Part shown: positions 26,214 through 41,005 of the stretch, piece by piece
How positions within the stretch are numbered: position 1 is the first letter of the stretch
Layout of the letters: each line of letters opens with the position of its first letter
Assembly (NCBI RefSeq): GCF_012974865.1
Contig: NZ_CP043633.1
Location: 496,001 to 560,000, forward strand
Source of the DNA: Nonlabens sp. Ci31
Lineage (GTDB): Bacteria; Bacteroidota; Bacteroidia; Flavobacteriales; Flavobacteriaceae
Direction of reading: 5' to 3'
DNA length: 64,000 nucleotides
The notes under the pieces: generated by a model
What the model saw: the letters and a program-made list of their open reading frames with translations, nothing else
What the model was told of the DNA's origin: nothing
Database searches by the model: none
Program-made: the position numbers and the translations under genes

Positions 26214-27392
26214 ATGAACCAAGAAGTAGGAATTATAAAGTCTATACTGGATAATGACTTATATAAGTTCACTCAACAACAGGCCGTTGTTGAACTATTC
26301 CAAAGAGAATGTGTTACGTACGATTTCATCAATAGGGGAAAAACAGCATTCCCATATGAATTTGACCTTAGACTTCGACAGGAACTTAAAAAGATGGAGC
26401 TATTATCTTTGCAAGAATCAGAAACTAACTTCCTTATAAAAAAGTGTGGAGGATATTTAAAACCAACATACATCGACTTGCTAAAATCATATCGTTATGA
26501 TTCGTCTGAAATAGAAATTACCCAGAACGGAGGAAAACTTACTTTAACTATTACTGGCTACTGGTATAAAACAATTCTGTGGGAAGTACCTCTTTTGGCT
26601 CTAATTTCTGAGCTTTATTTTCAAATGACGGGCGAGCCAATACATAGTCGTGAGGAAAGATTAAAAAACAATATTGAGAAGGGTACTAAGTTTTATAAAA
26701 ATGATGTTAAGGTTGCTGATTTTGGAACCCGAAGAAGATACTCTTACGCCAATCATTTGGAGGTAGTGCAGGATTTACTTTCAGTTTTTGATAATGGAAC
26801 TCAATTTATGGCAGGAACTTCCAATGTTCATATTGCAATGGTAACAGGTATTAAACCAATAGGAACTCATGCCCATGAGTGGATTAGCGGAATAGCTGCT
26901 CTAAAAGGATATAGCTATGCTAATAAAAATATGATGGATGATTGGGTTAAGGTTTATCAAGGCGAACTTGGCATAGCCCTGACAGACACTTTTGGCCTTG
27001 ATGCTTTTCTTAAAGACTTTAATACTTTTTACGCAAAATTATTTGATGGTGTTCGGCATGATTCTGGAAACCCATTTCAGTTTACAGAAAAGATTGTAGG
27101 TCATTATAAACATCTCGGTATTGACCCCATTTCTAAAACAATAGTATTTTCTGACGGTCTTAATGTAGACTTAACAATAGAATTAAAAAAACACTGCAAG
27201 GATATTGGGATTAAGTGTTCCTTTGGAATTGGCACACATTTCACAAATGACGTAGGCATAAAGGCTTTGAATATAGTAATTAAGATGGTTTCTATAAATA
27301 ATAGACACGTAGTAAAATTAAGTGATGTAAAAGAGAAGCACACCGGAGATTTGGAGACAATACAGTTAGCGAAGAGAATGGTTGGCTATTAA
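26214..27392 (+). CDS. pncB: Nicotinate phosphoribosyltransferase
   Basis: The 392-aa enzyme joins nicotinate and PRPP to nicotinate mononucleotide, the first step of NAD salvage. Visible family motifs are the N-terminal LDNDLYKFTQQQAV, FGTRRRYS, the His-bearing GTHAHEWISG near residue 218, and DGVRHDSGNPF. Length matches the family. The start is the ATG at 26214. It is one of the few plus-strand genes in the window and sits between two attC-like elements (25741 and 27391), so it may have been acquired as a cassette. With a defence island nearby, a role in restoring NAD after phage attack is conceivable, but simple NAD salvage explains it. Confidence 0.95.
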   Translation: MNQEVGIIKSILDNDLYKFTQQQAVVELFQRECVTYDFINRGKTAFPYEFDLRLRQELKKMELLSLQESETNFLIKKCGGYLKPTYIDLLKSYRYDSSEIEITQNGGKLTLTITGYWYKTILWEVPLLALISELYFQMTGEPIHSREERLKNNIEKGTKFYKNDVKVADFGTRRRYSYANHLEVVQDLLSVFDNGTQFMAGTSNVHIAMVTGIKPIGTHAHEWISGIAALKGYSYANKNMMDDWVKVYQGELGIALTDTFGLDAFLKDFNTFYAKLFDGVRHDSGNPFQFTEKIVGHYKHLGIDPISKTIVFSDGLNVDLTIELKKHCKDIGIKCSFGIGTHFTNDVGIKALNIVIKMVSINNRHVVKLSDVKEKHTGDLETIQLAKRMVGY

Positions 27393-27530
27393 CGTTTTGC
27401 GGCTGCCCGAAGAGTGTTACTATTGCCGCAAAACTGCATTTGAAAAACTAAACTTCCATTAACCACAAAACTGTCTTTGAAACACGAAACCCTGCCTTCT
27501 GGGTAAGTGCTGTTAGCGGTTCGTTGTTTT
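27391..27530. repeat. attC-like element after pncB
   Basis: It starts at the pncB stop (TTAACGTTTTGCGGCTGCC) with arms TTTTGCGGC (27395-27403) and GCCGCAAAA (27425-27433), and ends TGCTGTTAGCGGTTCG. An opening TTAAC and a closing GTTAGC frame about 130 bp with internal hairpins, as in integron attC sites directly after a cassette gene. Confidence 0.5.
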
Positions 27531-27564
27531 TTTGGTCATGGCGTTTCTATCGATTACTCGGTGT

Positions 27565-27668
27565 CTTGGTGCGTTAGCTTTCAGTTGTTCCTGCCCTTAA
27601 GCTGACTACAGATGAAAAACTTTTCTAGGTTTTAAACTTTCGGGAGCAGGGAACAAGGATACGCTGAT
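27565..27668. repeat. Second attC-like inverted repeat
   Basis: Outer arms GCGT (about 27571) and ACGC (27661-27664) and inner arms TTGTTCCTGC (about 27585) and GCAGGGAACAA (about 27648) pair with one bulged base and a loop of about 55 bp. It follows directly after the element at 27391. Confidence 0.4.
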
Positions 27669-27689
27669 TGTCAAAGTTCAAGGATTATG

Positions 27690-27848
27690 GCGTTTAACTG
27701 CGGGCTATGGTGAGATACAGTCTCACTGTGAGGCTATAAGAATAACTATAGCTTGTCAATTGTTCACGTCAAACATATGACGTATCGACAATTTGAGATG
27801 TACCCTAAGGGAACGGGCCTATGTGTCCAAAGTCTCATGTGGGTAAAA
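27690..27848. ncRNA. Possible structured RNA or further repeat
   Basis: Several hairpins are stacked in 150 bp: GTGAGA/TCTCAC (27710-27726), GCTAT/ATAGC around it, and CGTCA/TGACG (27767-27782) within AATTGT/ACAATT (27758-27763 and 27788-27793). There is no reading frame. Dense pairing suggests a folded RNA or another recombination element; I recognise no known RNA family, and strand is unknown. Confidence 0.25.
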
Positions 27849-28022
27849 TCAGGAGTCTTCTAGCTCTTTCTTTTTCTTGAACCCACTTATTCCAGCAACA
27901 ATCGAAAGGATCAACATGACTGGCATTACCACCTTCCAGTGCGGACAAGAAAAAAAGGCACAAACCATCAGACCTAGAGCAACTCCGCTTACCCAAAAGA
28001 GAATATTATGAGACTTCAGCAT
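27849..28022 (-). CDS. Small two-TM membrane protein (57 aa)
   Basis: ATG at 28022 opens a 57-codon frame: MLKSHNILFWVSGVALGLMV, a short loop with CPHWK, a second hydrophobic stretch VVMPVMLILSIVAGIS, and a Lys/Glu tail ending ELEDS. Two membrane helices with a charged tail, normal codon use and a clean start argue for a real gene. Function unknown. It lies in the accessory stretch between pncB and the IS1182 remnant. Confidence 0.55.
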   Translation of the reverse strand: MLKSHNILFWVSGVALGLMVCAFFSCPHWKVVMPVMLILSIVAGISGFKKKKELEDS

Positions 28023-28332
28023 AGAATAAGAAATTAATTTAGCAAATGGTATTATATGTAAAACAACGTATCAATTACGTTCCACACACCTGTTTTGTAG
28101 CGATGATTTTTAAATAAGCTTTTCAGGTGAAAGAATTGAAACTTAAATATACAATAAAATTTGATTTTACAAAAAAAAGCTAATTTTAACTGTGTAATGT
28201 TTAAAAAGAAAAAGGGTATACTCACTAGTTTTTCTCTTTTGTGTAGTGTCTCTTTACCATGACCGCTAACGGCAATTCGTTAGAAAACTTCCGTGTTATG
28301 TTTAGTTTACATACAAATTTGCATATTTCGTT
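28023..28332. other. AT-rich gap without a gene
   Basis: No supported gene. The stretch is strongly AT-rich and contains the region just upstream of the 57-aa gene and the 3' edge of the transposase remnant. Confidence 0.4.
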
Positions 28333-28608
28333 TTATAACTTTAATAAGATTGTTCTTTTTGTCTTTACCGTATTAAATAGTGCTAAAACAGTTATTATTG
28401 AGAATAGCGTGTTTATGAGTAACAAATACACTTTAAAAAAAGTGTATTTACATTGTTTTAATAGATTCCAAATTCTGGTAAGGTTGTATACAATGAATAT
28501 AAATCCAACATCTGCACTAGCTCTTAGCTTTTTTTTGGCTGTAATGTGATTAAACCCCTATTGTCTTTTCATCGTGCCATAAGGATGCTCAACAATCGCC
28601 TGCCTTTC
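28333..28608 (-). pseudogene. IS1182-type transposase C-terminal remnant
   Basis: On the minus strand the frame reads ERQAIVEHPYGTMKRQ, a TAG at 28558-28560 where the family has Trp, then GFNHITAKKKLRASADVGFI and VYNLTRIWNLL, ending at TAA 28333. This is the C-terminal end of IS1182-like DDE transposases (IVEHPFGTIKRQWGF, RASADVGFMFIAYNLRRI). The rest of the element is missing. A plus-strand open frame over the same place is only its shadow. Confidence 0.8.
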
Positions 28609-28813
28609 TTATTGTGTTGCAGCAGGTTTTTATTCGCATTTATTTAATACCGAATAGTATTTAATCGGATTGCGATTTAAGTATTCCTTGCCATTTATAG
28701 ATTTACAAAATTTCTCTTTATCCATTTTTATAATTATTTCTAAATACGCAATAAAGTCCTCTGCGTATTCTCCGTCTGCGAAACTTACTAGCTTTAGACT
28801 CGGTAAATAAAAA

Positions 28814-29119
28814 TCAGAGTTTTTTTTTAGAAATCACTTGTTCAAAAATCAGTCCTGTCGTTTCATAGAAAAAATCCGTTTTGCCAAGATTATGTTCAGG
28901 TCCAGTTGTTCGATAATATAATTCAAATTCAATATGGTTTTTAGGAACAAGTTTTATTAAAATAGAGTCAGGAATTTTATATTCCTTTAAATATAATTCA
29001 GCTGCAGTATTTAAGTTTTTCTCGTATTCAGATTCATTCTGAGTATTTAATTCGGTTAAATTTCCAAAAGTCAGAAACGAAAAAATCATTAAAAGTGGTA
29101 ATGTAAAAAACTTAATCAT
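28814..29119 (-). CDS. Exported protein, probably frameshifted at a nine-A tract
   Basis: The frame starts MIKFFTLPLLMIFSFLTFG, a signal peptide, and ends after 101 aa at QVISKKKL. The stop follows a run of nine T on the plus strand (28820-28828). With eight, the frame would go on as SDFYLPSLKLVSFADGEYAE to a stop at 28630, giving about 162 aa. The continuation looks protein-like and ends just before the IS1182 remnant, so the longer form was probably the original gene. No family recognised. Confidence 0.55.
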   Translation of the reverse strand: MIKFFTLPLLMIFSFLTFGNLTELNTQNESEYEKNLNTAAELYLKEYKIPDSILIKLVPKNHIEFELYYRTTGPEHNLGKTDFFYETTGLIFEQVISKKKL

Positions 29120-29276
29120 CGGTTTTTCTCAAATGTGCTACAAGGTTGTTGTGTCTCGCTTGTTAGGTGTTTCAAGCACTAAAGTTAATAAATAAATCCC
29201 CGATAGAAAGCCCACGAGGAATTTCATAAGTAGGCTAGATCTAGCAATTATTTTTATATGTTATTATAATGCGTCT

Positions 29277-29675
29277 TTATTTCAGTTCACATTTTTCTTT
29301 TAGAAATCCGAATATTTTTTTGTCAACTTCGGATACAATATCCAAATCTTTATAATTTAGCCATTTTATTTCTTCAATCTCATTTGCAGGTTTCAAAATT
29401 CCTTCATATTCGGCTTTGTAACAAGTCATTTTGACTAATACCCCCTCTTTTTCCCCATCCGATTGCGCTTTAAAAGTTCCAACATATTCAATTGTTTTAT
29501 TATTAATTTGCACGCTTAATTCCTCCGATATTTCTCTTACAAGAGTTTGTTCATCAGTTTCACCAGAATTTCTTTTTCCTCCTGGAATATAGTATTTAGA
29601 TTTTCCTTTGGATTTTGTGCTTAATATTTGTCCGTTTTTCGTTTGAATAAACGCTATTTTGTCAACTTCTTTCAT
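29277..29675 (-). CDS. Nudix hydrolase
   Basis: The Nudix box is visible as GGKRNSGETDEQTLVREISEE (G-x5-E-x7-REvxEE), which hydrolyses nucleoside-diphosphate-linked compounds. The frame stays open up to 29762, but residues 1-29 of that longer form are encoded by the intergenic repeat element (the GCTCGTAACTTGCAAAATA block, also found at 38166). The start at ATG 29675 (MKEVDKIAFIQTKNG) matches normal Nudix N-termini and gives 132 aa. Substrate cannot be told. Confidence 0.88.
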   Translation of the reverse strand: MKEVDKIAFIQTKNGQILSTKSKGKSKYYIPGGKRNSGETDEQTLVREISEELSVQINNKTIEYVGTFKAQSDGEKEGVLVKMTCYKAEYEGILKPANEIEEIKWLNYKDLDIVSEVDKKIFGFLKEKCELK

Positions 29676-29719
29676 TTTTCGATTGGTTTTGTCAAATGCA
29701 TAAAAGGTTTTTGTGTGTG

Positions 29720-29941
29720 GCTCGTAACTTGCAAAATATAAAATTACTTTCGGATGAAGCACGAGCCGGCAGCCGCAGCTGATTTCTTGTTACCTGCCGG
29801 CAGGCAGGTCTTTTTTTCTCTATAAGCCATACTTCGACAAAAACTCAGCACAAGCTTTAAAAATTTAGCGGACTCGCATATATACCTTAATTTCTATTAA
29901 TCAACTATCTATTATCATATATAAGTTGTTGTATACCGTAT
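29720..29941. repeat. Cassette-spacer repeat, type A
   Basis: Blocks GGCTCGTAACTTGCAAAATA, CTTTCGGATGAAGCACGAGCC, TCTCTATAAGCCATACTTCG and CAGCACAAGCTTTAAAAATT follow in this order, ending GTTGTTGTATACCG before the next gene stop. The GGCTCGT and ACGAGCC blocks can pair to form a hairpin. Other copies lie at 18905, 36838 and 38158. It carries an inserted CCTGCCGGCAGGCAGG palindrome at about 29807. Confidence 0.65.
29806..29823. repeat. REP-like palindrome CCTGCCGGCAGGCAGG
   Basis: A GC-rich palindrome in AT-rich DNA; a sister copy CCTGCCTGCTGGCAGGCAGG lies at about 34944. Both sit inside intergenic elements. Confidence 0.6.
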
Positions 29942-30724
29942 TTATTTCATCAGTTCTATTTGAAAGCAGGTGGCATCAAATGCCATTTTTATTCCTCTGA
30001 GATTTGGTTCCGATTTGTTGTTTTCAAATAGTTCATTCAAGTACTCTTCTTGCTTAATCACATTGTCATTATCTCTTTGCAAAATTTGATATTTCAAGAG
30101 AATTAAATTCGCCATAATTTTATCTGTCACACTTAAATCTTTTTGATTGAGCACCTCATCTAATGTGCTTTTTATCTCTGAGTCGTTATCAGATAGTTCA
30201 TCCATTAAATAAGCATTAGCCAAGTCAGCTTTACTCATATTGGAGTAATCATTCTGATTGGACATATCTTTTCTATAGGTCATTTTATTTCCATTTAGAA
30301 AATACCATCTCGTATAGGAATCATTTTCTATTTTAATTTCTCTTTCAAATTTCTTTTCCTTTACACTCCAGTTGGTAAAAGCAATTAAAAGTTCGGTTCC
30401 ATCATCTTTCTTTAAAATTGCAAATCGGATGAAGTAATTTCTTTTTCCAGGCTTTTCAATTTCGATGTCTAAATTATTATCAACTGAAACATATTTTTTA
30501 AGCGCTTTAATAATTGAGAAAACTTCTTCTGAACTTGCTTCTGGAAACAGATTTTCTCTTAAAAATAGGTCGATGTATAAATAATGAGTTAAATAAAAAT
30601 CATCCATTTTCAGATAATTAGACTCACTTAAATTGTCTGATTTAATAGTAATTTTTTCAGATTGAGCATATCCCGAATTTGTAAATAGTGCTAAAAGTAA
30701 AAGTGTGATTATTGTTCTATGCAT
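29942..30724 (-). CDS. Exported protein of unknown function (260 aa)
   Basis: Signal peptide MHRTIITLLLLALFTNSGYAQ, then a mature chain with many Asp, Asn and Lys residues and a helical C-terminal half (SKADLANAYLMDELS, LSVTDKIMANLILLKYQIL). No family is recognised. It is a single-gene unit bounded on both sides by repeat elements (29720 and 30738), as expected for a cassette. Confidence 0.7.
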   Translation of the reverse strand: MHRTIITLLLLALFTNSGYAQSEKITIKSDNLSESNYLKMDDFYLTHYLYIDLFLRENLFPEASSEEVFSIIKALKKYVSVDNNLDIEIEKPGKRNYFIRFAILKKDDGTELLIAFTNWSVKEKKFEREIKIENDSYTRWYFLNGNKMTYRKDMSNQNDYSNMSKADLANAYLMDELSDNDSEIKSTLDEVLNQKDLSVTDKIMANLILLKYQILQRDNDNVIKQEEYLNELFENNKSEPNLRGIKMAFDATCFQIELMK

Positions 30725-30737
30725 TCTGTTGGTTTAT

Positions 30738-30872
30738 ATGGTGGCAACCTTGTTATATAAAAATAGTTGCGGGTTTATGTGCGGGAATTTTCAGAAGAAA
30801 AATCAGATGCAGCAAACACACCACTACCTTGTAATAGTACTAAACCGCAAATAGTGTATACGGTGTTAAGCA
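30738..30872. repeat. Cassette-spacer repeat, type B
   Basis: Blocks ATAGTTGCGGGTTT, GAATTTTCAGAAGAAAAATC, AGATGCAGCAAACACACCAC, then CTAAACCGCAAATAG and ATACGGTGTTAAGC. It aligns along its whole length with the element at 31420. The centre (GATTTTTCTTCTGAAAATT on the minus strand) and flanking ACTACC/AGTTG arms can fold into a bulged hairpin. Confidence 0.65.
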
Positions 30873-30880
30873 AAAGTTAT

Positions 30881-31402
30881 TTATAATACTTTATCTGATT
30901 TCAATTTTTCAAGAATTTTTTGTGCTGACTTTTCTGCAAATAAAGCAGGTCCAAATGAGCTGTTTGAATTAAATGTAGCTTTCCAGACTTCTTTTTTCGT
31001 AAAAAATTCAATTCCAGTCAGTTGGTAGGTGGCTGATTGAAGTGCGCCATTATAGTATGCTAAATTTGTCGGTTTGAAAATCAAAACAATATCTTTTGGA
31101 TCATTTCTTATAGCGTTATCAATTTTTGAGTTTATATCGTCATTTTGATTAAGAGCTAGTTCTTCACTCCCTTGTTCGACAAGTAAAAATTCAACTTTCT
31201 TATTTTCATTATAGAACTCAATTTCCAACTTTTCCATTAATTTTTCAGAAAAATTCTCTTTACTATATTTTTCGTATGGAATAACAATTAGTGGGTTTTT
31301 ATAAGGTTCTTTTATTGCAGAACTATCTACTAAAGACTTAATTGATACTCCACAACTTGTCAATAAAATAACAGTTAAAATTAAGGTAATCAGTTTTTTC
31401 AT
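30881..31402 (-). CDS. Lipoprotein of unknown function (173 aa)
   Basis: A lipoprotein signal MKKLITLILTVILLTSCG (lipobox LTSC) is followed by a mature part in which a central DPKDIVLIFKPTN strand and a C-terminal FAEKSAQKILEKLKSDKVL helix stand out. The pattern (a predicted oxygen-like or GNA1162-type periplasmic fold) is not specific enough for a family. It is a single gene between two type B elements. Confidence 0.7.
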   Translation of the reverse strand: MKKLITLILTVILLTSCGVSIKSLVDSSAIKEPYKNPLIVIPYEKYSKENFSEKLMEKLEIEFYNENKKVEFLLVEQGSEELALNQNDDINSKIDNAIRNDPKDIVLIFKPTNLAYYNGALQSATYQLTGIEFFTKKEVWKATFNSNSSFGPALFAEKSAQKILEKLKSDKVL

Positions 31403-31419
31403 TTAGTTTGTTTTTAATT

Positions 31420-31557
31420 TTTAATGAGGTTTATGTGTAAGGATAGTTACGGGTTTGCACGCGAGGATTTTCCGTAGGAAAATCAGATGTAGCAAAGACA
31501 CAACTACCTTTGATTTAGCACAAAACCTCAATTATTTTTCTACGGTGTTGTGGTTTG
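31420..31557. repeat. Cassette-spacer repeat, type B
   Basis: GGATAGTTACGGGTTTGC and GCAAAGACACAACTACC form long arms with bulged bases, and the centre GATTTTCCGTAGGAAAATC is a near-perfect hairpin. It ends TACGGTGTTGTGG at the next gene. Bulged long arms around a hairpin are what single-stranded attC recombination needs. Confidence 0.65.
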
Positions 31558-31881
31558 TTATTTTTTTCTTTCCTCAAATTCTTTTATTGAACTATTTATC
31601 TCTTCTTGGCTCATTTGGTTTCCGCAATAACGACAAATTTGAGCTTCAATTTTAATCGATTCTTTGCATTTATCACATTGTTTTCTTGGGTCAATTCCGT
31701 ATCTCAAAATTAAATACGCAATCCATCCAGTCATTGGGTGAAATCCAAAAAGCATCCAAAGTTTAGAAACTCCTTTGATTTTCGCCCATTTTAGTCCGAA
31801 CCAAATAGGAATAAACCATAAGAAAAATATAATTAGTATTACAACTATAAATCTAATTACACCTTCAAATATGTTTTCCAT
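31558..31881 (-). CDS. Small membrane protein with C-terminal zinc ribbon
   Basis: The 107-aa protein has an N-terminal membrane helix (FIVVILIIFFLWFIPIWFGL) and a second hydrophobic stretch (LWMLFGFHPMTGWIAYLIL), followed by a zinc ribbon CDKCKESIKIEAQICRYCG (two CxxC pairs). The membrane region resembles the PLDc_N-type helical pair seen in small bacterial membrane proteins. Function unknown. A single gene between a type B and a type C element. Confidence 0.75.
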   Translation of the reverse strand: MENIFEGVIRFIVVILIIFFLWFIPIWFGLKWAKIKGVSKLWMLFGFHPMTGWIAYLILRYGIDPRKQCDKCKESIKIEAQICRYCGNQMSQEEINSSIKEFEERKK

Positions 31882-31959
31882 AATATTTTTTTATATTTTT
31901 AAATAATTCATTTTAGTGGTCTTTATTTTCTTTTTTTAAGTGTGTTTTAATAAACCACA

Positions 31960-32157
31960 ACGGTGTTGTATATGGCTCGTAGCATGCTGAATAGCGTTTA
32001 CTTTTCTGATGATATACAAGCCGACTTTTTAAATTTACTATTTATTTTAGTTGCTGGGAAATCGTCAAATTTAAAAATTTGGCGACTTTCCAAAAATGCC
32101 CAAACCTTAGTGCTATCAACAACTTGCGCTATTTTTAATATACATAATTAGCAAAAT
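31960..32157. repeat. Cassette-spacer repeat, type A/C
   Basis: It begins ACGGTGTTGTATATGGCTCG, then AGCATGCTGAATAGCG and TTACTTTTCTGATGATATAC (type A-like), and continues with AAATTTAAAAATTTGGCGAC and AACTTGCGCTATTTTTAATA, which also occur at 34720-34800 and 40920-40990. So this copy joins the two halves seen separately elsewhere. Confidence 0.65.
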
Positions 32158-32889
32158 TTAATTCAGGTTTTCCTTTATTAGTTTTATTAGTTTCTTGTCT
32201 TTACTCTTCCTTGCTAATCTCAGGCTTGAATATCCATCTTTGTCCTCTAAAGTTAATTTGGCACCATTGTCAATTAGTAATTTTGAAATGTCATAATTAC
32301 CATTTTTAATGGCTTGATTCAATGCACATTCTTTATCGCGAGCATGTGCATTTACATTAGCGCGTTTATCGATCAGTAACTTTACTAAATTATAGTGGTT
32401 ACTCCTTGAAGCTTGGATTAGTGGTGTAATTCCGTCATCAGGATTATCTTCTATTTTTGCTCCGTTATTAATTAAGTATTCGACTAATTCAATATTTCCG
32501 GTCTTGCAAGCAAAGCGAATTGGGGTTTGATTTCCTGCTACCTTATATTTTTGATTTACATTGGCCCCATTTTCCACAAGGAATTTTACTATTTCAAAAG
32601 AGTTTTCTTGGCAAGCCGGTAACAGAGGAGTTACATCATTCTTTGAGCTTTTCATGTCAACCTTACCTCCATGTAGGAAGAGAAGTTGTGCAATTTCAAG
32701 ATTATTGTCCCAAGCTGTATCGAACATTAGAGTCATACCATTAGATTCATTAATTTGATTTGGATCAGCACCATTTTCTAACAATTCTTTCAACTTTTTG
32801 TAGTCTTCGTTTTCATAAGCCACAAATAGTTCTTGAGCACTTAGAGTCATTGTGAATAATAATACTATTGAAGAAATCAGGTTTTTCAT
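32158..32889 (-). CDS. Exported ankyrin-repeat protein
   Basis: The 243-aa protein has a signal peptide (MKNLISSIVLLFTMTLSAQ) and about six ankyrin repeats filling the rest (LKELLENGADPNQIN, IVKFLVENGANVNQ, LVEYLINNGAKIED, LVKLLIDKRANVNAH, ISKLLIDNGAKLT). Such periplasmic ankyrin proteins bind partners, sometimes as immunity or anti-toxin factors, but no partner gene is next to it. It is a single gene between spacer elements. Confidence 0.88.
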   Translation of the reverse strand: MKNLISSIVLLFTMTLSAQELFVAYENEDYKKLKELLENGADPNQINESNGMTLMFDTAWDNNLEIAQLLFLHGGKVDMKSSKNDVTPLLPACQENSFEIVKFLVENGANVNQKYKVAGNQTPIRFACKTGNIELVEYLINNGAKIEDNPDDGITPLIQASRSNHYNLVKLLIDKRANVNAHARDKECALNQAIKNGNYDISKLLIDNGAKLTLEDKDGYSSLRLARKSKDKKLIKLIKENLN

Positions 32890-32919
32890 AATAAAGTTTT
32901 AAGGTAATTTTTGCTGACT

Positions 32920-33265
32920 GGCTATATGCCTCAAATATAATATATAGCCTTTTAACATATGAGATAAAAGCATCTTTCTAGTCATGAAGAGGATGTGCTT
33001 GTACTGTTGTTGCCACAGCACCTGCTCCTTGTTAACACCCCTACTTTTCCTTTTGTTGCTAGTTGTTAAGGGGTATAAATCTATTTCAAAATGTGGAAGG
33101 AATCTTACGGTTTACCATAATCTGTGTACATATGGCTGGTTATGACTTTTAGTGTTACACCACCTCATCTAACAACTACCCAATCCATCAACATCTGTGA
33201 GGATTTATAGAAGTAGCTGAGGCTAAAACCTATTTATACCGCTGCAATCCTTACTGCCTATCTAT
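32920..33265. other. Gap with a type D repeat
   Basis: The part 32920-32995 (TATATGCCTCAAATATAATA, AGCCTTTTAACATATGAGAT, AAAAGCATCTTTCTAGTCAT) recurs at 40095-40150 (AGCCCTTTAACCTAAGTGAT, AAAAGCATCTTCCAGGTGG) and in part at 41415-41450. The rest has no open frame worth calling. Confidence 0.5.
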
Positions 33266-34110
33266 TTAATGCGCATAACTATTGAAAAAATGTTTTGTAT
33301 CCTTAAGTCTTGTAATCCCAATATCCAACAAACTTCAGAAAGGTCAGAGAAGTCCAATCCGCCTGCTGCAATTGCCTCATTGTTGTACCTGCCGTCTTTC
33401 CCATTGTACTTGTTTGATAAATCAATAGCCAACTGCCATACCTGAATTAATTTTGGATTCTTGATTTTATCCTTCCATTGGTGGTATTCAGGAGATCTAA
33501 ATCCAGGTGTTCCATTTCCGACTCCGTTACCATCAGGTATTTTCTGATAATCTATATTTTTCTTGACAAAATCCAAGTAAGCGGGTGATGTTACTTCTTC
33601 GTTCCAATCACTGTGCTGTACGATATGAATACGCTGCGACATATCCATATCTGGTAAATCTGCTTGAATGGCTTTTATCAGTTCTGCTGAAAAATCAGAT
33701 TGTCCCGCATCTGCAATCCAAACATCACCTTGGTTTTTGAGGGTTGCTGTAGCGATCACTTTAACCTGTGCTATAGCATTTTGCGTGTTTTCATGTGCGT
33801 CTGTCCAGTGGTCTCCAAATGCGAGTTGAAATAAATCATTAGGTGGAACATATAATCCTTCTTGAATGCCATAAGTGCCAGCAACAGCGTGATAATTTAT
33901 TTCTGAATAGTTGGTGTGAGACATTAATGTAGCTAAAGCCGCTGCAGTCTGAAGGTCATCTACATCAGTTTTACAATCAAAGTGGGCTAATAATAAATCT
34001 TTTTCAATGTCGAAGTTTCCTGATTTTGGAGATGGCTTGTCTTGCGCCATGCTTATAGAAAAAATAAATATGCAAGCTATGGCGATACATACTAGTGTTT
34101 TAGATTTCAT
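33266..34110 (-). CDS. Exported nucleoside-hydrolase-like protein with C-terminal frameshift
   Basis: The start ATG at 34110 gives signal peptide MKSKTLVCIAIACIFIFSIS ending MAQ; an upstream ATG at 34134 is open but less likely. The mature part begins with an Asp-rich loop (LLAHFDCKTDVDDLQTAAAL) like the Ca-binding DxDxxxDD motif of the inosine-uridine nucleoside hydrolase fold, here DCKTDVDD. Near the end the frame reads GLQDLRIQN to a stop at 33262, but the other frame gives KDTKHFFNSYAH with a stop at 33266-33268 after a missing A. So a one-base deletion alters only the last dozen residues and may not abolish function. Confidence 0.7.
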
Positions 34111-34313
34111 CGTTTTAAGGTTTAATAATTTCAACCACTTTAAACTATTTTGCTGTTGGCTGCATCAATGGCTATCCAACTTTTTGTTTACGATTTTCTT
34201 GAGTGATTCAGCTACTAAATTAGCAAATTACCAACCAAATGAAAATCCTGTGAAGATGATGAGCGGTAAGTTTTTTTATCCATTCTGTTTTTACATACAC
34301 TTTAAGACGTCAT

Positions 34314-34547
34314 TTATTGTTTTTTAAGCCATAGCCTAATTTCCTTTCGTAAAGAAACTTCAGGTTTTGGTAACGGAATTGTTTTTCCAAATTGTTTACT
34401 GCTCTTAAATTTTGAAAATGCCATTTTATGTTTTTTCCAGGCGGCTGGATAGAGTTCTAAGAACTTATTAAAAAAACTTTGTTCATTAATTTTTCCTTCT
34501 ATTTTAGAAAGTACTTCTTTAAATTTTTGCTCTTGTTCTAAAATCAT
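34314..34547 (-). CDS. Small basic protein of unknown function (77 aa)
   Basis: A 77-aa soluble, Lys-rich protein with no signal, beginning MILEQEQKFKEVLSKIEGK and containing FLELYPAAWKKHKMAF. Codon use and the clean start suggest a real gene, but no family is seen. It may be a DNA- or RNA-associated small protein; that is only from its charge. Spacer element at 34600 upstream. Confidence 0.55.
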   Translation of the reverse strand: MILEQEQKFKEVLSKIEGKINEQSFFNKFLELYPAAWKKHKMAFSKFKSSKQFGKTIPLPKPEVSLRKEIRLWLKKQ

Positions 34548-34599
34548 TTTCTTTTTACGGAGTAATAAATAAAACTGCTAGTAGTTTCTAATTTTATGC

Positions 34600-34810
34600 T
34601 GCTCTTTTTGATTGTTTGCACAGGCCTTGTGTATAAAACCTAGTGTCCAAATTATAAAATATTTTCGATTAAGCAGCATCTGAATTTTTTGAGTTGTACT
34701 AATGATCTTATTTGGGGAATTTGTCCGATTAAAAATTTTAGAAACTTTCAAAATACTCAAGCTATAGTATTAGCAGTAACTTGCGCTATTTTGTATATAC
34801 ATCTTAAGTT
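34600..34810. repeat. Cassette-spacer repeat, type C
   Basis: Blocks GGGGAATTTGTCCGATTAAA, AATTTTAGAAACTTTCAAAA and GTAACTTGCGCTATTTTGTA, with copies at 31960 and 40895. The element ends at the left edge of the IS110 insertion. Confidence 0.55.
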
Positions 34811-34942
34811 TGATTCTTATTAAATTGTGATATAAATCAGAAAGAACAAAAGAGAGGATTAAGGTTACTATACACGGTGAAGCCTGGACTTCGTCAACAT
34901 TGATAATCCCCTCTCTTTTACTATCTCAACCACGTTCAGTTC

Positions 34943-34963
34943 CCTGCCTGCTGGCAGGCAGGT
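34943..34963. repeat. REP-like palindrome CCTGCCTGCTGGCAGGCAGG
   Basis: GC-rich palindrome, second copy in the window after 29806. It lies inside the left part of the IS110 element, about 70 bp before the transposase start. Confidence 0.6.
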
Positions 34964-35032
34964 GTGAGACTTTGGATCTCGTTTTTAAGTTGTTGTGAGT
35001 AAGATAGATTGCTCTTTCATAAATCAGTTCTA

Positions 35033-36000
35033 ATGAATAAATATAAAGAAACTTATGGAGTTGACATCAGTAAAGATGTTTTTGATGTCTATGGTAGCCT
35101 TAGCGTGCACCAGCAGTTTAACAATGATGAGTCAGGGTTTAAAAAGTTCCTAAAAGCACTACCAGAGAACTCATTAGTAGCCATGGAGGCTACAGGTTAC
35201 TATCATTACCGACTCGCACAGTTTCTTTACAAAAATGAAGTCGTAGTATCAGTTATCAATCCTTTGTCCATCAAACGTTTTATCCAGATGAAACTGGCTA
35301 AGGTGAAGACAGGCAAAAGTGATGCAAAGGCGATCTGTGAGTATGCTCAGACCAACGAGGTTCCCATCTACAATGCGCTTACCGAAGTGCAGAGTGAATG
35401 CCTACAGTTGTTTCGCCTGTTGGACACTTATTTAAAGCAGCGCACTGCCGTGAAGAACAAGATCCACGGAGAAGAAGCCTTGGGAGTTCCCTCAAAGTTC
35501 GTGTACCGTTCTTTAAAACGCCAAAGGAAGCATCTGGACAAGGAAGTCAAAGCGATTGAAGAAAAGATCCTATCCCTGGTAAAAGAAGATCAGCAGCAGC
35601 AGCTCACGCTTCTAACTTCAGTACCTGGAATAGGGCAGAAGACAGCCTTGTTTCTGATTGTAGTAACCGATGGCTTTTCTAAGTTCGAAAAGGCCTCACA
35701 GTTATGCAGCTATGTGGGAATCACGCCCACCACCAGAGAGTCTGGCAGCAGTGTGAGAGGTAGGGCAAGGATCAGCAAAGTAGGCAATCGAAAGCTGCGG
35801 AATCTATTGTTTCTGTGCGCCTTTAATGCTGTAAGCATAACAAGGCATGCAGAGAGCTCTACGAGCGTATTGTAAACAAAGGCAAGAGTAAGAAACTAGC
35901 GCTGATTGCAGTGGCCAACAAGCTACTAAAACAGTGTTTTGCCATAGCCAAATCAGGGCTGTCCTATGATGAAACTTATGTGTCTGTAATACCAAAGTAA
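35033..36000 (+). pseudogene. IS110-family transposase with one-base deletion near the 3' end
   Basis: It starts MNKYKETYGVDISKDVFDVY with the catalytic Asp, EATGYYH, KSDAKAICEYA, and the C-terminal transposase domain LLTSVPGIGQKTALFLI, FSKFEKASQLCSYVGITPTT and RISKVGNRKLR. At 35829-35832 GCTGTAAGC replaces what should be GCTTGTAAGC, so the frame runs into a stop at 35875. The next frame continues NKACRELYERIVNKGKSKKL to TAA 36000 (about 322 aa in total). Except for this base the gene looks intact and recent. Confidence 0.9.
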
Positions 36001-36138
36001 ACAGAACTAAGATGGCATAAAAAAAAGCTCAAAGAATCCAAACATAGGAATCTGTGAGCCTGGAATATTTTTGTCTCAAATTATGGAAGAAAAGAGTTGT
36101 TTTTTACCTCAGTTCTTTGTTATGTGCAGGCTTTTTGC

Positions 36139-36816
36139 TTACTCTTCTTTTGGTTTTGCTTTTAATTCAGACAACGCCTTTAATTTCATCTCTTTAATAT
36201 ATCCTGTAAGAGCTAAAATCTTCTTTTCTTTAGAAGCCTTAATATCTTTGTAAATTGTATATGGGTTAATTCCAGCAAGTGTAAATAATTCTTGTGCTTC
36301 AGCTAAACTTTGAATTGCTTCTGTTTGATATTTAGAATCAAAAAGTTGGTTGTAGTTATTTTCAATTTCTAAAATTAGTGGATTAAATTTTTTCAACTTT
36401 GAGCATAATTCAGACTTGTCTCCTTTTATAAATTTATCCATATTTCTATAAAGGGACATACTGTTTTTTTCAACTATATCAGCTGAAAATTGGTTTATAA
36501 GTAAATTTGTTCTCCATCTCAAAGTTGCATATTTATTTTGAATTTCCTCTCTTATTTGAATATCCGAGCTTTGTTCAGATTTAATTTTAGATTTTTCAGC
36601 GTCAGTAATAGATGCGTTTTTTAACAGTTCTAACCTTTTAGAATTTCGCTCGATGAACTTCGATTCAGACCATAATATTTTATTCTCTGAAATTTCCTTA
36701 ATTGTATTTAAATACGCCACTAATCCTAATGGTTTTGATTCGTCCAATCCATTTTGAGCTTTAGTTATAAAAGACATAAATACGATTGTAATAAATAAAT
36801 AGATTGATTTTTTCAT
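36139..36816 (-). CDS. Exported protein of unknown function (225 aa)
   Basis: Signal peptide MKKSIYLFITIVFMSFITKAQ, then a helix-rich, Lys/Glu-rich mature chain with a central YATLRWRTNLLINQFSADIV. No family recognised. Single gene between the IS110 element and a type A spacer. Confidence 0.7.
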   Translation of the reverse strand: MKKSIYLFITIVFMSFITKAQNGLDESKPLGLVAYLNTIKEISENKILWSESKFIERNSKRLELLKNASITDAEKSKIKSEQSSDIQIREEIQNKYATLRWRTNLLINQFSADIVEKNSMSLYRNMDKFIKGDKSELCSKLKKFNPLILEIENNYNQLFDSKYQTEAIQSLAEAQELFTLAGINPYTIYKDIKASKEKKILALTGYIKEMKLKALSELKAKPKEE

Positions 36817-36837
36817 GATAGTTGTTTTTATTTAATG

Positions 36838-36960
36838 CTAACTGCAATGTATATAGCTCGTAGCATGAAAAATAGCGATTACTTTTCGGTGGTTAAGGAC
36901 GAGCCAATTTTTTAATTTTATTATTACTTTTTTTCAATTAGCCAAATTATTCCCTCCTAT
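36838..36960. repeat. Cassette-spacer repeat, type A
   Basis: CTAACTGCAATGTATATAGC, TCGTAGCATGAAAAATAGCG, TTACTTTTCGGTGGTTAAGG and ACGAGCCAATTTTTTAATTT match the 38158 copy closely. The GCTCGTAGC and ACGAGCC blocks pair. Confidence 0.65.
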
Positions 36961-37335
36961 TCCTTTGGGACAGTATGTACTATATCGTCTGATGTAAAAA
37001 AGCTGGAGCTTGAATATTTGTTATAAACACTCCAATTAGCGTGATAAAAAATATTCTTTTCATCTTTGATCTTGGTTTTCAAACATTTGGTTATCTAAAA
37101 TTACAAATACTAATAGTACCTACAAATACCCTGTAAAGGGTATTTTTCTAGTGCTCCATAAGGTGTTTGTGAATGCTTAGTAGGGGTGAAACTAAGTAAT
37201 AAATCTTCTGGTGGTACTCGATCTGGACTTTTGGGGATTGGTCCCATTAAGAAATTTCGCGGCTTCCTTTAAAAGCTCTTAACTTTGGGATAAGCAACAA
37301 AAACCCTGTTACTTAAGGCCATTGTTGTGCTTTCG
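36961..37335. other. Gap with a signal-peptide relic
   Basis: On the minus strand, 36986-37063 reads MKRIFFITLIGVFITNIQAP and stops soon after, the start of an exported protein whose remainder is gone. Nothing else is recognisable. Confidence 0.35.
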
Positions 37336-38124
37336 TTATTTCTTTAGTTCGGAATTAATCAAATCCAAAATCTCCAGGATTCTCGCGCGTAAGGCCTCAG
37401 ATTGCAGATTTGCAGCTTTATTAAGAGAAATAGCACTTCCAAGCATACCTTCCAGCTTCCTACTGGTTAATATTTCATTCAAAGGAGCACCCAGCTTTGA
37501 TGTTCCAATTTCAATTTTATAGGACTCCTCATTATGATCTAATAACCAAAGATGTTGAGAATTGTTCATAAAACTATTAGAGACATCTCTGCCCAAACCT
37601 AATTCTGACAGAATTAAATCAAATTCACCATTTACAGAATTACTCCAGGTTACTTCAATTTCCCGGACCCCTACCACATCTGACGACCAATTTGAAAGTA
37701 AGCGTTTTAATTTGTGGTTGCGGATTAGAATTAAATTGCCTGAACTTGTTAAGTCATTCTGTATAGGGTCGTAAGTTGGGTCGTGGAAAGTATTAGCAAG
37801 TTCTTTAACAAGACTGTCACGAATAATTCCTACGGGTTGGTCAAATTTCTTTAATAAATTCATTGCTGAATAAATGACCCTGTCCCTGGTCGTCATTTTT
37901 TCTTCCAGTTGTATGAGATTGGCCTGGTAATCTTCCTGTAGTTGTTTGAGGACAACCTGTTCTTTTATTCGGTCCTTTCTTCCTTCATTCCAATTATTAA
38001 CTTGTAATGCAAGGAGAATACCTATCATTACAAGAATAATTTCACCAACAGCATATTTGAAATACTTTCCAGTTTTGTTTTCCATCAACAAGTTTTGTCT
38101 AATTGTTCTAAAGAATTTCATCAT
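37336..38124 (-). CDS. DUF6090 family membrane protein
   Basis: The 262-aa protein begins with the family signature MMKFFRTIRQNLLMENKTGK, then YFKYAVGEIILVMIGILLAL (one membrane helix) and QVNNWNEGRKDR. The rest is a soluble, helical domain outside the membrane. Function of the family is unknown; it is found widely in Flavobacteriaceae, often in several copies and in accessory regions. A truncated sister lies at 39725-40060. Single gene between type A elements. Confidence 0.9.
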   Translation of the reverse strand: MMKFFRTIRQNLLMENKTGKYFKYAVGEIILVMIGILLALQVNNWNEGRKDRIKEQVVLKQLQEDYQANLIQLEEKMTTRDRVIYSAMNLLKKFDQPVGIIRDSLVKELANTFHDPTYDPIQNDLTSSGNLILIRNHKLKRLLSNWSSDVVGVREIEVTWSNSVNGEFDLILSELGLGRDVSNSFMNNSQHLWLLDHNEESYKIEIGTSKLGAPLNEILTSRKLEGMLGSAISLNKAANLQSEALRARILEILDLINSELKK

Positions 38125-38157
38125 TGGTTAGCGGTTAGTTGTAATGAAGTATAAGGT

Positions 38158-38340
38158 TACTGTACGGCTCGTAGCTTGCAAAATACCGATTGCTTTTCGG
38201 TTAAGCACGAGCCGATTTTTTAATTTTACTATTACCTTTTTTCTCAATAAGCCTAATTAAAAAAATTGGCAGACTTGTAAATAGACCTGAACTTCTATTA
38301 AGCAACTGATAAGCTATATGCGGTGTTAGCAACTGGCTTT
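38158..38340. repeat. Cassette-spacer repeat, type A
   Basis: ACGGCTCGTAGCTTGCAAAA, TACCGATTGCTTTTCGGTTA, AGCACGAGCCGATTTTTTAA, TTTCTCAATAAGCCTAATTA, ending ATGCGGTGTTAGCAACTGG. The most complete copy of this type. CGGCTCGT and ACGAGCCG form a perfect 8-bp stem. Confidence 0.7.
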
Positions 38341-38343
38341 ATT

Positions 38344-38532
38344 TCAGTTCCTGTTTTCTATGTCAAGATATTTTGATTTGAAATAGACGTTCATCTTTAT
38401 TTTTAACTTTGTTCTTTCTTTGGTTTCTTCACGACCAAAAGTTGGTTTGTGTTGATAAAAATTCCAACGCTTTAATTCTAAAAATCCATAAATGACCTTA
38501 TCAGATTTGGTCAGGTCACCTATTGGAGATCC
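38344..38532 (-). pseudogene. C-terminal fragment of an unknown protein
   Basis: Open without a start codon: GDLTKSDKVIYGFLELKRWN, FYQHKPTFGREETKERTKLK, ending KYLDIENRN. It looks like the C-terminal end of a small gene whose 5' part is lost, in the position of a cassette after the repeat at 38158. Family unknown. Confidence 0.35.
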
Positions 38533-38551
38533 CTATTCCGATGTTTCCAAT

Positions 38552-39625
38552 TTAGAGAGCAGATTCCAGCCTGGCTATGATATCCTTAGGGAGCTTATCT
38601 CGATGCTCTTTCAGGATGGTTTTATAAATCTCTTTCCACTTAGGAGCATCTGGATCTTTTAATGAAGTCCGGTGGTATTCCAAATCCCTCAGCATCAAAT
38701 TGAGATTGTACTCGTGGAATTTATCACCATACTCTTTTAAAGCGGATATACTTTTTTCTACATCTTTATTTAAAGCAGCGAGCAGTGCCTCTTGTAAAAG
38801 CCTGCTTGCTTCCCTTTCTCTTTCCTCAGATCCAAAATCCATATTCCCAAACTGTAATTGTATACTTCGATCGGCAAGGTCTTGCACAGGAGAAACAGGG
38901 CTTTGATCATTGGCATCATTTATAATTTCTTTTCCACGATATTCTTTGATTGCCATGACCTGAGGATATAAACTGGTTTCTTCATCATAAATCTTGGACT
39001 TTATGGTCGCTAGTGCCTGCATTGCATTTTGAATCGTAGTTTGGTTGATTTCAGAAGGCAAAGGGATCAAAGAGGTCACTTCTTTAGATTTAATACCTAT
39101 AACTTCAATGATGAGTGTACCGCTCAATTTTTCTTGTTTTGCCGCAAGACCTATAGAATAGAGGTCACTTATATTGATACCCTCTTCAGCAGTGTAGATC
39201 AGAGATATCAAACGCAAACCAACTCCTACCCTTCTGGATCCAATAAATTTTTGATCTGAGAACTGAGCCAAAGTGGCATATTTCATATAATCCATGGTGA
39301 TCTTATAGCTGGTATTCTTTTTTGAGAATGCAATAGGAAGGTATTCCAGTGATCCCTCCTGCTTGAATTCCCCTATAGCCACCAAGACCGTTTCGTTATT
39401 TAAGAAGCCCAAGGTTTCTTCCCTATTTAAAAGCTTTATAGGTTTGGACTCTAGCAAACCGTCCGTATTCTTTATCAAGATTTTATCTTCAAATTCTACC
39501 GGATCCACTGGTTCATAACCTCGAAAATTTCGAAAGCTTTTACCTTCCTTGAAAATATCCTCATTCAACTGAGATGTTTTGCAACCGGAGAAAATAAAGA
39601 GTAATAGTAGTGGCCAGTATTTCAT
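38552..39625 (-). CDS. Lipoprotein of unknown function (357 aa)
   Basis: Lipobox signal MKYWPLLLLFIFSGCKTSQL. The mature part has an N-terminal beta-rich region with ETVLVAIGEFKQEGSLEYLP and a middle region with GSRRVGVGLRLISLIYTAEE, followed by a helical C-terminal half (LLQEALLAALNKDVEKSISA, LKEYGDKFHEY). No family is recognised. Higher GC and more regular codon use than its small neighbours suggest a different origin. Confidence 0.75.
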   Translation of the reverse strand: MKYWPLLLLFIFSGCKTSQLNEDIFKEGKSFRNFRGYEPVDPVEFEDKILIKNTDGLLESKPIKLLNREETLGFLNNETVLVAIGEFKQEGSLEYLPIAFSKKNTSYKITMDYMKYATLAQFSDQKFIGSRRVGVGLRLISLIYTAEEGINISDLYSIGLAAKQEKLSGTLIIEVIGIKSKEVTSLIPLPSEINQTTIQNAMQALATIKSKIYDEETSLYPQVMAIKEYRGKEIINDANDQSPVSPVQDLADRSIQLQFGNMDFGSEEREREASRLLQEALLAALNKDVEKSISALKEYGDKFHEYNLNLMLRDLEYHRTSLKDPDAPKWKEIYKTILKEHRDKLPKDIIARLESAL

Positions 39626-39724
39626 AAGTAAGGAATTTTACAAGAGTCAAAATTTTGTATTCCTCCATCATTAAACAATCTAACCCGGATGAATAGTTAT
39701 TGCAATATCGTAAAAAATTGAATA

Positions 39725-40060
39725 TCAAAGGTTTTCCATATATTTTAATTGAATGGAAGCAATTAAAAAGCATTCTTTACCAGCTGTATGGTGAATGCTT
39801 AGTGGCCTGATGTTGCTTTTTATAAGTACGCCTACTTCTTTAAATTTTGATATATCATCTTGAAGATTAGATTTTAATTTCAAAAGAAAGGTTTGTTTTA
39901 GAATATTGTCTTTTCTCTTTTCATTCCAATTATTTATGGATAAGGCAATTAGAATTCCAATAACCACAAGAACTATTTCTCCAATGGCATAAAGTATATA
40001 CTTACTGAATTTACCTTCAGTGATCATTTTTTGACGGATTGTTCTAAAGAATTTTATCAT
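39725..40060 (-). pseudogene. Truncated DUF6090 protein
   Basis: The N-terminus MIKFFRTIRQKMITEGKFSK, then YILYAIGEIVLVVIGILIAL and SINNWNEKRKDN, is the family signature, but the frame ends after 111 aa where the family has about 250. The last 30 residues after KFKEVGVLIKSN no longer resemble the sister at 37336. Probably a 5' remnant, although a short membrane protein could still be made. Confidence 0.7.
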
Positions 40061-40079
40061 TGGTTAGCAGTTCCTGATA

Positions 40080-40150
40080 ATGAAGCACAACGGTGATGTA
40101 TATGGCTCGTAGCCCTTTAACCTAAGTGATAAAAGCATCTTCCAGGTGGT
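40080..40150. repeat. Cassette-spacer repeat, type A start joined to type D
   Basis: ACAACGGTGATGTATATGGC, TCGTAGCCCTTTAACCTAAG, TGATAAAAGCATCTTCCAGG. The first part matches the opening of the type A elements, the second the element at 32920. Confidence 0.6.
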
Positions 40151-40171
40151 GGCTTGGTTGTTAACTGTAGT

Positions 40172-40207
40172 GTATTAAAAAAGGCTGCCTTATTAAAGAC
40201 AGCCTTT
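40172..40207 (-). terminator. Rho-independent terminator after the 142-aa lipoprotein gene
   Basis: Stem AAAGGCTG / CAGCCTTT with a loop of about 13 bases, followed on the minus strand by a T run, 26 bp after the stop of the gene at 40233. Confidence 0.8.
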
Positions 40208-40232
40208 GCTATAACTCAGAAGTGTGCTTTTA

Positions 40233-40661
40233 TTAGTTTCCTGCACTTAATGAATAACTTCCGTTTCCATTAAAGGATTCCAAAGTAATAGTAACTGTCC
40301 AGTTACCAGGCGCGCCAGTGTTGGTAACACCGCCAATAGTATCTGGCTCAGTCGCTCCATTAATGCTTCTGTCAAGTACCACAGCCCCATTGGCATCGGC
40401 AACTACTATTTGAAATGTCCCAGAAGAAGTACTCGTTATATCAGCATTATAATCGGCTGTAGCTAAATTGTTCGTCCAATTAATAATTCTTGAGCCATTA
40501 CCGCCATCTCCAGTAAAGTCTCCGCCTATATCGCCATCAGGCCCTTCATTGACGGTTATATTTACGGTTGGGCCATCGTCATTGGAACAAGAGGTAAATA
40601 CACCAAGAAATAGCGTGATTGCTGTTGCAATTGTAAGTAGTTTAAAATTTGAGATTTTCAT
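40233..40661 (-). CDS. Small Asp/Asn-rich lipoprotein
   Basis: A 142-aa protein with lipobox signal ITLFLGVFTSCSND, then an acidic, Gly/Asp/Thr-rich beta-type mature chain (GPDGDIGGDFTGDGGNG, GTFQIVVADANGAVVLD, WTVTITLESFNGNGSYSLS). It resembles a single Ig- or C2-like beta domain of outer-membrane lipoproteins. Its own terminator lies downstream. Function unknown. Confidence 0.75.
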   Translation of the reverse strand: MKISNFKLLTIATAITLFLGVFTSCSNDDGPTVNITVNEGPDGDIGGDFTGDGGNGSRIINWTNNLATADYNADITSTSSGTFQIVVADANGAVVLDRSINGATEPDTIGGVTNTGAPGNWTVTITLESFNGNGSYSLSAGN

Positions 40662-40894
40662 TTGGTTAAGAGTTTTTATAGTTCATTTAATAATAGAACA
40701 ACTAGATCTCTAAATGTCCCGAACTTTTATAAAGTATTTTAGTGATTGAATGGCAACTATCAAATAATCAGCTGACTTCATTTTATATTTTTTTATCAAA
40801 TTACCACAAACTGTTTTGTTCAGGGCTATTAGGCTATAATAATATGCGAGCTCTTCGAGTGGTACTCGAACCTAATTTTTTGAGTGGTACTAAT

Positions 40895-41005
40895 TATAAT
40901 ATTATGGGAATTGTCCGATTAAAAATTTGGCGGACTAGCGAGTACGACGAGGACTTAAGTTTGTAAGTCAGTTGTGCTATTTTTTATCTACATCTGAAAT
41001 GAGCA
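40895..41005. repeat. Cassette-spacer repeat, type C
   Basis: GGGAATTGTCCGATTAAAAA, TTTGGCGGACTAGCGAGTAC, GTTGTGCTATTTTTTATCTA. It matches 34720-34800. Between 40740 and 40895 a repeated GAGTGGTACT-type block (40857 and 40881) is seen. Confidence 0.55.

Follow-up and report, generated by a model that had tools for sequence, protein, structure and literature searches.

The closest described systems to the locus reported here are integrons, in which the tyrosine recombinase IntI is combined with an attI site and with one-gene cassettes carrying attC sites with a GTT/AAC core. In canonical integrons, the start and the end of a cassette are complementary, and the R box of attC follows the consensus GTTRRRY/RYYYAAC. 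Canonical attC sites are folded on the bottom strand, as described in excerpts of two studies (PMC8618304, PMC2727003). In Bacteroidetes, the authors of IntegronFinder first found only integrases without cassettes and then one complete integron, in Salinibacter ruber, according to an excerpt of the source (PMC9024848). Here, we analyzed a window of 64,000 nucleotides from Nonlabens sp. Ci31, the window being the whole stretch G000:C1:496001-560000 within a 3.74-Mb single-contig genome, which holds an array of genes separated by attC-like elements (28814..41370, minus strand). This array resembles a cluster of attC sites lacking integrases (CALIN). With a probability of about 0.88, based on sequence comparison, we regard it as an old satellite of an integron-like system with its own recombinase, an attI-like site and co-directional cassettes. 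The system appears to work like an integron, yet its recombinase lacks the IntI-specific domain and stays below the IntI cut-off, and its sites deviate from the R-box consensus. It is widespread in flavobacteria and apparently undescribed: no description of it was recognized in the open-licence literature (preprints excluded), where absence does not mean absence from print.

attC-like elements of the window and of a remote array

From 41370 to 28814, the minus strand of the window carries 14 mostly single genes, and a single IS110 element lies among them on the plus strand. The row of mostly single, co-oriented genes with related elements in between, described in the initial annotation, is thus borne out. 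That annotation had proposed either an attC-like cluster without an integrase or a new mobile cassette system, and both proposals gained support: the window has no IntI-model match and no IntI-like gene adjoins the array, and the genome encodes a recombinase of its own that lacks the IntI domain. This recombinase was found where the annotation had suggested looking for intI, elsewhere in the genome. The IntI model matched three places there (six partial matches), none over the cut-off; two of them are XerD and a XerC-like gene, and the third is a 360-amino-acid tyrosine recombinase (G000:C1:3143983-3145065) that heads a remote array. On the 3' side of its gene, mostly single genes are arranged head to tail on the same strand with elements of types A and B, which are much better preserved than the window copies. 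A simple site rule counted 32 sites over about 61 kb of this remote array, after one overlapping and two isolated rows had been dropped from the 35 obtained.

Covariance models trained solely on the remote array, R1 for type B and R2 for type A, recovered window copies with E values down to 7.6e-22, which indicates that the elements are related types rather than chance resemblances. On the minus strand, the best type A element lies at 38147..38333 (R2 114.3 bits, E 7.6e-22), and others at 31953..32155 (E 1.8e-16), 29698..29936 (E 2.3e-12) and, beside the IS110 element, 34614..34812 (E 2.3e-7). Another minus-strand element (36834..36999) is weak by the model (R2 E 0.032) and has a conserved 3' arm. 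This arm, GCTACGAGCCATATACA, occurs exactly at window positions 31967 and 40097 and with 1 mismatch at 36848; the copy at 40097..40113 (minus strand) belongs to a mosaic element, in which the type A 3' arm is fused to another element type (repeats D2 and D6). A weak R2 match is also present at 37154-37332 (E about 0.03), and another (E 0.0033) was observed outside the array at 18869-19095. Among the type B elements, for which the top strand is the minus strand, that at 29138..29271 has a degenerate stem with several broken pairs (R1 49.7 bits, E 5.2e-10), and that at 31422..31555 belongs to the sole intact cassette of the window (R1 E 0.039); the stretch 31413-31545 gave folding z scores of -4.8 (plus strand) and -4.4 (minus strand). 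A divergent type B element (30725..30880, minus strand) is 79% identical to 31438-31510 over 73 nt (alignment A2), the two type B copies of the initial annotation being 30758-30830 and 31438-31510. A partial, weak R1 match lies at 34203-34278 (0.016).

In the whole genome, 46 R1 matches (E up to 0.1) and 65 R2 matches (E up to 0.01, partly including both strands of one site) answered the genome-wide count proposed with the annotation. They lie mainly at 3.14-3.235 Mb, with smaller clusters at 1.26-1.30 Mb, at 2.05 Mb, in the window and in other places. The further clusters and single copies (G000:C1:1263358-1300333, 2053778-2058688, 677382, 792253, 2810879 and 3633392-3680744) are more satellite arrays.

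The R1 training sites have 97.3% of their cells paired, and 6 pairs changed on both sides. Their covariation was 0.204 vs 0.097 in shuffled alignments (0/500) and at most 0.069 in slid versions, the structure being derived from the same alignment as was tested. In 140 sites collected with a Watson-Crick-only rule, stem mismatches comprised 305 A.C on the top strand (G.T on the bottom strand), 4 top-strand G.T and 227 others. The bottom strand also folded better in the two intact sites tried (z -4.5 vs -3.3 and -2.0 vs -0.9). Judged by these patterns, the elements behave like attC sites that are folded on the bottom strand.

Cassette ends, exact units and the attI-like junction

To characterize the cassette borders, the bases from GTT on were compared with the complement of the same cassette's end, and runs of at least 8 were counted. 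In the remote array, such runs occurred in 24/32 own pairs vs 26/992 cross pairs (permutation 0/20000), and in 3/32 when the two halves of one array site were compared. Across 17 loci of other genomes, which are partly non-independent (two copies or strains of one species occur), they occurred in 79/97 own pairs vs 19/886 cross pairs. Within the 24 own-array pairs, identity is seen in 24 at position 9, in 18 at position 10 and in none at position 11, where A faces G or C faces T in 23, corresponding to a bottom-strand G.T wobble. Positions 12-14 are identical in 24, 24 and 22, and identity is low beyond position 14. The 79 pairs from other genomes behave alike, with position 11 identical in 0/79, a bottom-strand wobble there in 73/79, and pairing ending after position 14. 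The pairing of a cassette's own start and end, together with the wobble, indicates that pairing joins the opposite ends of one gene unit, as would follow if a circle had been opened at GTT; the orientation of the wobble indicates that it is the bottom strand that folds. GTT/AAC is constant and the following bases are cassette-specific (for example GTTGTGC), so that R boxes of the form RYYYAAC/GTTRRRY were not found. A chain search for cassettes was dropped, since long chains (10 and 9) also arose in reversed AT-rich sequence.

The failure of one own-array unit, cassette 10, was explained by a missed site inside it that had been entered by a group II intron. The remote array contains two group II introns (RF02001) of nearly the same sequence, each in antisense orientation at the R'' end of a site; one has an intact reverse transcriptase/maturase frame (L052:1110-2989) and the other a broken frame (L052:15398-17278). 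In canonical integrons, group II introns are known to target attC sites.

The first cassette of the remote array starts 56 bp past the recombinase stop codon and matches its own end. At many loci, an inverted repeat directly follows the recombinase stop and ends in TATAC, three or four bases, T and GTT; by a rule that itself demands this motif, the junction was recognized in 33/47 loci and missed in 14, including that of the remote array (L007). In Galbibacter orientalis, two loci (L016 and L017) are identical over 148 bp up to the GTT junction and then show 66-72 mismatches per 100 bp. Similarly, two strains named Cellulophaga baltica (L026 and L045) differ at 6 positions in the last 100 bp before GTT and at 66-69 per 100 after it. 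A switch of content exactly from GTT in two species suggests that cassettes are inserted at the attI-like site next to the recombinase. Whole gene units also recur with exact borders: cassettes 1 and 25 of the remote array are identical over 905 bp, a 922-bp cassette is common to C. baltica and genome G159 (90% identity), and locus L098 contains a 670-bp tandem cassette copy (99%). Such copies suggest that the cassette is the mobile unit.

Based on these data, we propose a system with three parts: a XerA/IntI-like tyrosine recombinase that lacks the IntI-specific insertion, an attI-like site right behind the recombinase stop codon and a co-directional array, in which a cassette would comprise one (sometimes more) genes and an attC-like site. 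In the circular cassette, the bottom strand of the site would fold into a long hairpin, whose inner (L) stem is common to the site type and whose outer (R) arm would be built from the 14 bases at either end of the cassette itself, with the G.T wobble at position 11. Joining of this single-stranded hairpin to attI at GTT by the recombinase would place the new cassette behind attI. Once in the array, the R arm would have its halves kept apart by neighbors, and this may keep the cassette fixed there. The window array probably arose in trans or by breakage, and it appears to be decaying now.

The recombinase family and alternative explanations

The recombinase retains the catalytic R-K-HxxR-H-Y residues, with Arg218, Lys243/245, His307, Arg310, His333 and Tyr342 invariant in 54 aligned rows. 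The IntI-specific insertion is missing (29 amino acids vs 72 in IntI4); in the rows displayed, about 31 + 11 alignment columns are filled in 5 IntI rows and empty in 8 recombinase rows. Its best family matches are XerA_Arch (190.3 bits; cut-off 220) and the integron integrase TIGR02249 (182.6; cut-off 265). In a 60-row tree with five Xer rows as outgroup and with long branches, 22 IntI rows formed one clade (100/100), 33 recombinase rows formed a separate clade (88/95), and the two were sisters (96/85) with respect to the Xer rows. The predicted structure (mean predicted local distance difference test, pLDDT, 82; predicted template modelling score, pTM, 0.54) matched XerA best and IntI4 next, and its approximately 80 N-terminal residues were predicted to fold into a small alpha/beta domain that could be assigned to no known family. 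This domain gave no Pfam match over the cut-off and no PDB sequence match under E 0.1, and its fold matches, including those from comparison with HARP (4o66) and the XPB N-terminal domain, were all weak. Kinship of the domain with HARP/XPB is conjectural and was first suggested by a sequence motif. In genomes G159 and G034, relatives of the recombinase (L089-L091) lack the domain, their frames being 306-310 amino acids long and matching from residue 91-93. Two of them, L089 and L090 in G159, head arrays with the same 14-base arms (13/18 own pairs), in which positions 12-14 are identical in 13/13 and the wobble at position 11 is present in 13/13, so the domain is not needed for this layout; L091 has two sites by the site rule.

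Linkage between recombinase and sites was counted at 47/63 loci, 16 being left out because the motif rule recognized no whole recombinase there. The 47 loci have 135 sites downstream in sense (328 kb), 1 upstream (302 kb) and 1 antisense, and the reversed-sequence control of the same loci gave 0 sites. At least one downstream site is present in 26/47 loci, and 19 of the 21 siteless loci hold at most 3.0 kb behind the recombinase gene. The family is represented by 199 genomes. A recombinase match at E 1e-60 is present in 75 of them, with about 49% identity or more to the Nonlabens protein in 14 (one partial), and R1 sites at E 1e-4 are carried by 166. R1 sites occur in 73 of the 75 genomes with a recombinase match vs 93 of the 124 others (Fisher p 1.8e-5, the overlap of the two lists being counted by hand). 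In the phylum, R1 sites at E 1e-6 are present in 36/296 genomes, some of them outside the class.

Several observations weigh against this interpretation. Behind the recombinase, the site rule found no site in 15.3 kb at L099, none in 10 kb at L046 and one in 15.0 kb at L100, and two genomes (G029 and G075) show an orientation misfit in the match lists. R1 sites also occur in 93 of the 124 family genomes that lack a recombinase match at E 1e-60, which suggests that other recombinases may serve or that these sites are remnants. In C. baltica, the ungapped comparison is out of register farther upstream than the last 100 bp before the junction (54 and 73 mismatches per 100). In only 3/111 array alignments of at least 250 bp does each of the four ends fall no more than 40 bp from a cassette border, and the longest others are repeated stretches of about 1.9 and 1.5 kb, some identified as introns. 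Finally, across all 14 window cassettes there is no start/end signal on average (mean 6.3 vs 6.5 for cross pairs), and complementarity is kept in 1/14. That sole intact cassette (31425..31961, minus strand, outer end approximate) contains the gene 31558-31881 followed by its own type B element. Its start, GTTGTGGTTTATTA at 31961, and the complement of its end, GTTGTGGTTTGTTA at 31549, are identical at 13/14 positions with an A/G wobble at position 11, giving a score of 13.5, while the cross-pair maximum for window cassettes is 12, reached by 2/182. The types A and B of the initial annotation are matched by the models at several window elements, but many copies are degenerate, as the broken pairs at 29138 illustrate, and the signature is missing from 13 cassettes.

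An alternative in which canonical IntI moves the cassettes of ordinary CALINs, and the linked recombinase is a passenger, is quite improbable. Canonical IntI does exceed the cut-off in 105/395 genomes of the phylum, and in genome G261 a canonical IntI gene, whose product contains the IntI insertion, has an R1 site (L124:12145-12278) about 1 kb upstream in the canonical divergent layout, so that cassettes may pass between the two systems. However, of the genomes that match IntI at E 1e-60 (107 in total), a single one, G233, belongs to the class of Nonlabens sp. Ci31, and none belongs to its order or family. The Nonlabens genome itself has no IntI over the cut-off, and the arrays are headed by the recombinase without the insertion. 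Moreover, 12 loci around canonical IntI genes (232,877 bases, both strands) contained 2 sites by the site rule; a canonical attC rule found 0 sites around the same 12 genes, and this rule (7/7 paired L bases) is probably too strict. Very improbable, too, is an integron-like system in which another recombinase acts, such as host XerC/XerD or the shorter relatives at 35-48% identity, and the 360-amino-acid protein is one of several. The family genomes that carry R1 sites without a recombinase match would fit this possibility, as would the array-heading relatives without the N-terminal domain, while the nearly exclusive position of sites downstream of this recombinase family and the attI-like junction immediately after its stop codon argue against it; action of several members of the family would be a form of the integron-like system proposed here and does not contradict it. 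Transcribed hairpins (terminators or small regulatory RNAs) or repeats like miniature inverted-repeat transposable elements spreading between genes are likewise a very improbable explanation. In their favor, the elements are intergenic, hairpin-forming and abundant, and they have no better name, since no family of Rfam matched the window at gathering scores. Against them, wobble pairing favors the strand that does not carry the cassette genes (305 vs 4), the outer-arm partners lie at both ends of a gene unit and not inside one element, and whole gene units are duplicated with exact borders.

Returning to the integron-like system with its own recombinase, a broader and distinctly more tentative view is that it represents a second integron lineage, sister to IntI and free of the IntI insertion. 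In such a lineage, folded attC would be recognized via a cassette-private 14-bp outer arm whose two halves meet only in the free circle; insertion would separate them and thereby lock in captured cassettes. The role of the IntI insertion might be taken, in one large clade, by a small N-terminal domain that is possibly related to the fork-binding HARP/XPB domains, and the lineage might be the main gene-capture platform of flavobacteria.

Gene content, sister species and comparison with known systems

By Pfam (E 0.01), the 14 array genes include a Nudix gene, a sub-threshold zinc ribbon gene, an ankyrin gene and two DUF6090 genes, and nine have no Pfam match at this threshold. On the minus strand, these are the Nudix gene (29277..29762; PF00293, E 3.2e-13), two genes without a Pfam match that by our own reading encode a protein with a signal-like start (29942..30724) and a lipoprotein-like protein (30881..31402), the zinc ribbon gene of the intact cassette, the ankyrin-repeat gene (32158..32889; PF12796, E 5.3e-36), a DUF6090 gene (37336..38124; PF19578, E 6e-10) and a short DUF6090 gene (39725..40060; PF19578) whose DNA is 71% identical to the start of the former (repeat D1). 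The IS110-family transposase gene (35009..35995, plus strand; PF01548 and PF02371) is open until 35875, after which a stretch in another frame resembles the remainder by our own reading. The IS110-family element adjoins the type A element at 34614-34812; for the IS1111-attC relatives, attC is a known target.

In a sister species (G588), the right flank of the array is common at about 86-90% DNA identity, including the PepSY_TM gene (41731..42306, minus strand; 93% amino acid identity), and the same place holds the same kind of array in the same orientation, with sites up to E 4.6e-35. Within a 60-kb region of G588, two of the 14 window genes are present at the same place, namely a 77-amino-acid gene (34314..34547, minus strand; 88% amino acid identity) and a 142-amino-acid gene (40233..40661, minus strand; 91%). 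The other 12 were not found there at E 1e-4, and the Nudix gene had no match under E 0.1. Between the two common genes, the window has four genes and the IS110 element, and G588 has three other open frames. In the genus (13 genomes including Nonlabens sp. Ci31), a close recombinase is present in this genome only, the others having relatives at 33-41% identity or no match at E 1e-40. These differences in content and this distribution of the recombinase suggest that the window locus is an old, variable satellite array. They also agree with the initial annotation, which had tied its reading to folding and to variation of content: the elements fold and covary, and the array of the sister species shares 2/14 genes. 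Beside the array, a nicotinate phosphoribosyltransferase-like gene (26214-27389, by our own reading) gave no match at E 1e-40 in a search of 11 further genomes of the genus, so the left flank is variable too.

Some cassettes of the remote array were also inspected. Second in line behind attI is a cassette gene for a class A beta-lactamase-like protein (L007:5051-5947, G000:C1 about 3.146 Mb; PF13354, E 8.5e-37), and two very large single-gene cassettes (L007:7717-10194 and 11421-14672) encode DNA methyltransferase/restriction-like proteins by our own reading of the translation.

Surveys that demand the IntI domain would miss this system. In excerpts of PMC2426708, genes were selected by the additional domain of IntI, so that proteins like the present recombinase would have been left out there. 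The presence of one site type in 166/199 genomes of the family contrasts with the Bacteroidetes surveys described above. If the recombinase works, the IntI domain would be dispensable for attC recombination, the origin of integrons would become testable, and many orphan single-gene islands in these genomes would be explained.

In comparison with known systems, the system shares with IntI integrons a tyrosine recombinase, an attI-like site, one-gene cassettes, the GTT/AAC core, complementarity between the ends of a cassette, group II introns inserted at sites and probably bottom-strand folding. It differs from them in that the recombinase has no IntI-specific insertion (182.6 vs the cut-off of 265) and, in the clade of the Nonlabens protein, an extra N-terminal domain, in that 14 cassette-private outer-arm bases with a fixed wobble replace the GTTRRRY/RYYYAAC box, and in that the recombinase gene is co-oriented with the array, with attI behind its 3' end. 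Like a CALIN, the window array is a cluster of attC-like elements (29138-29271, 29698-29936, 31953-32155, 34614-34812 and 38147-38333) without an adjoining IntI-like gene, but its sites are of another sequence and arm type. Archaeal integrons also have attI directly downstream of the integrase gene, whereas their IntIs possess the IntI-specific domain, according to excerpts of PMC9668308. Unlike archaeal XerA and Xer proteins, the recombinase heads cassette arrays, and in the tree it groups as the sister of IntI and not of the Xer rows. In the 'integron-like' subgroup of tyrosine recombinases (Smyshlyaev et al. 2021, PMC8138268), the insertion is incompletely conserved, and the recombinase protein alone may therefore be known there; the excerpts of that paper do not mention cassette arrays of Bacteroidota, which set the present system apart.

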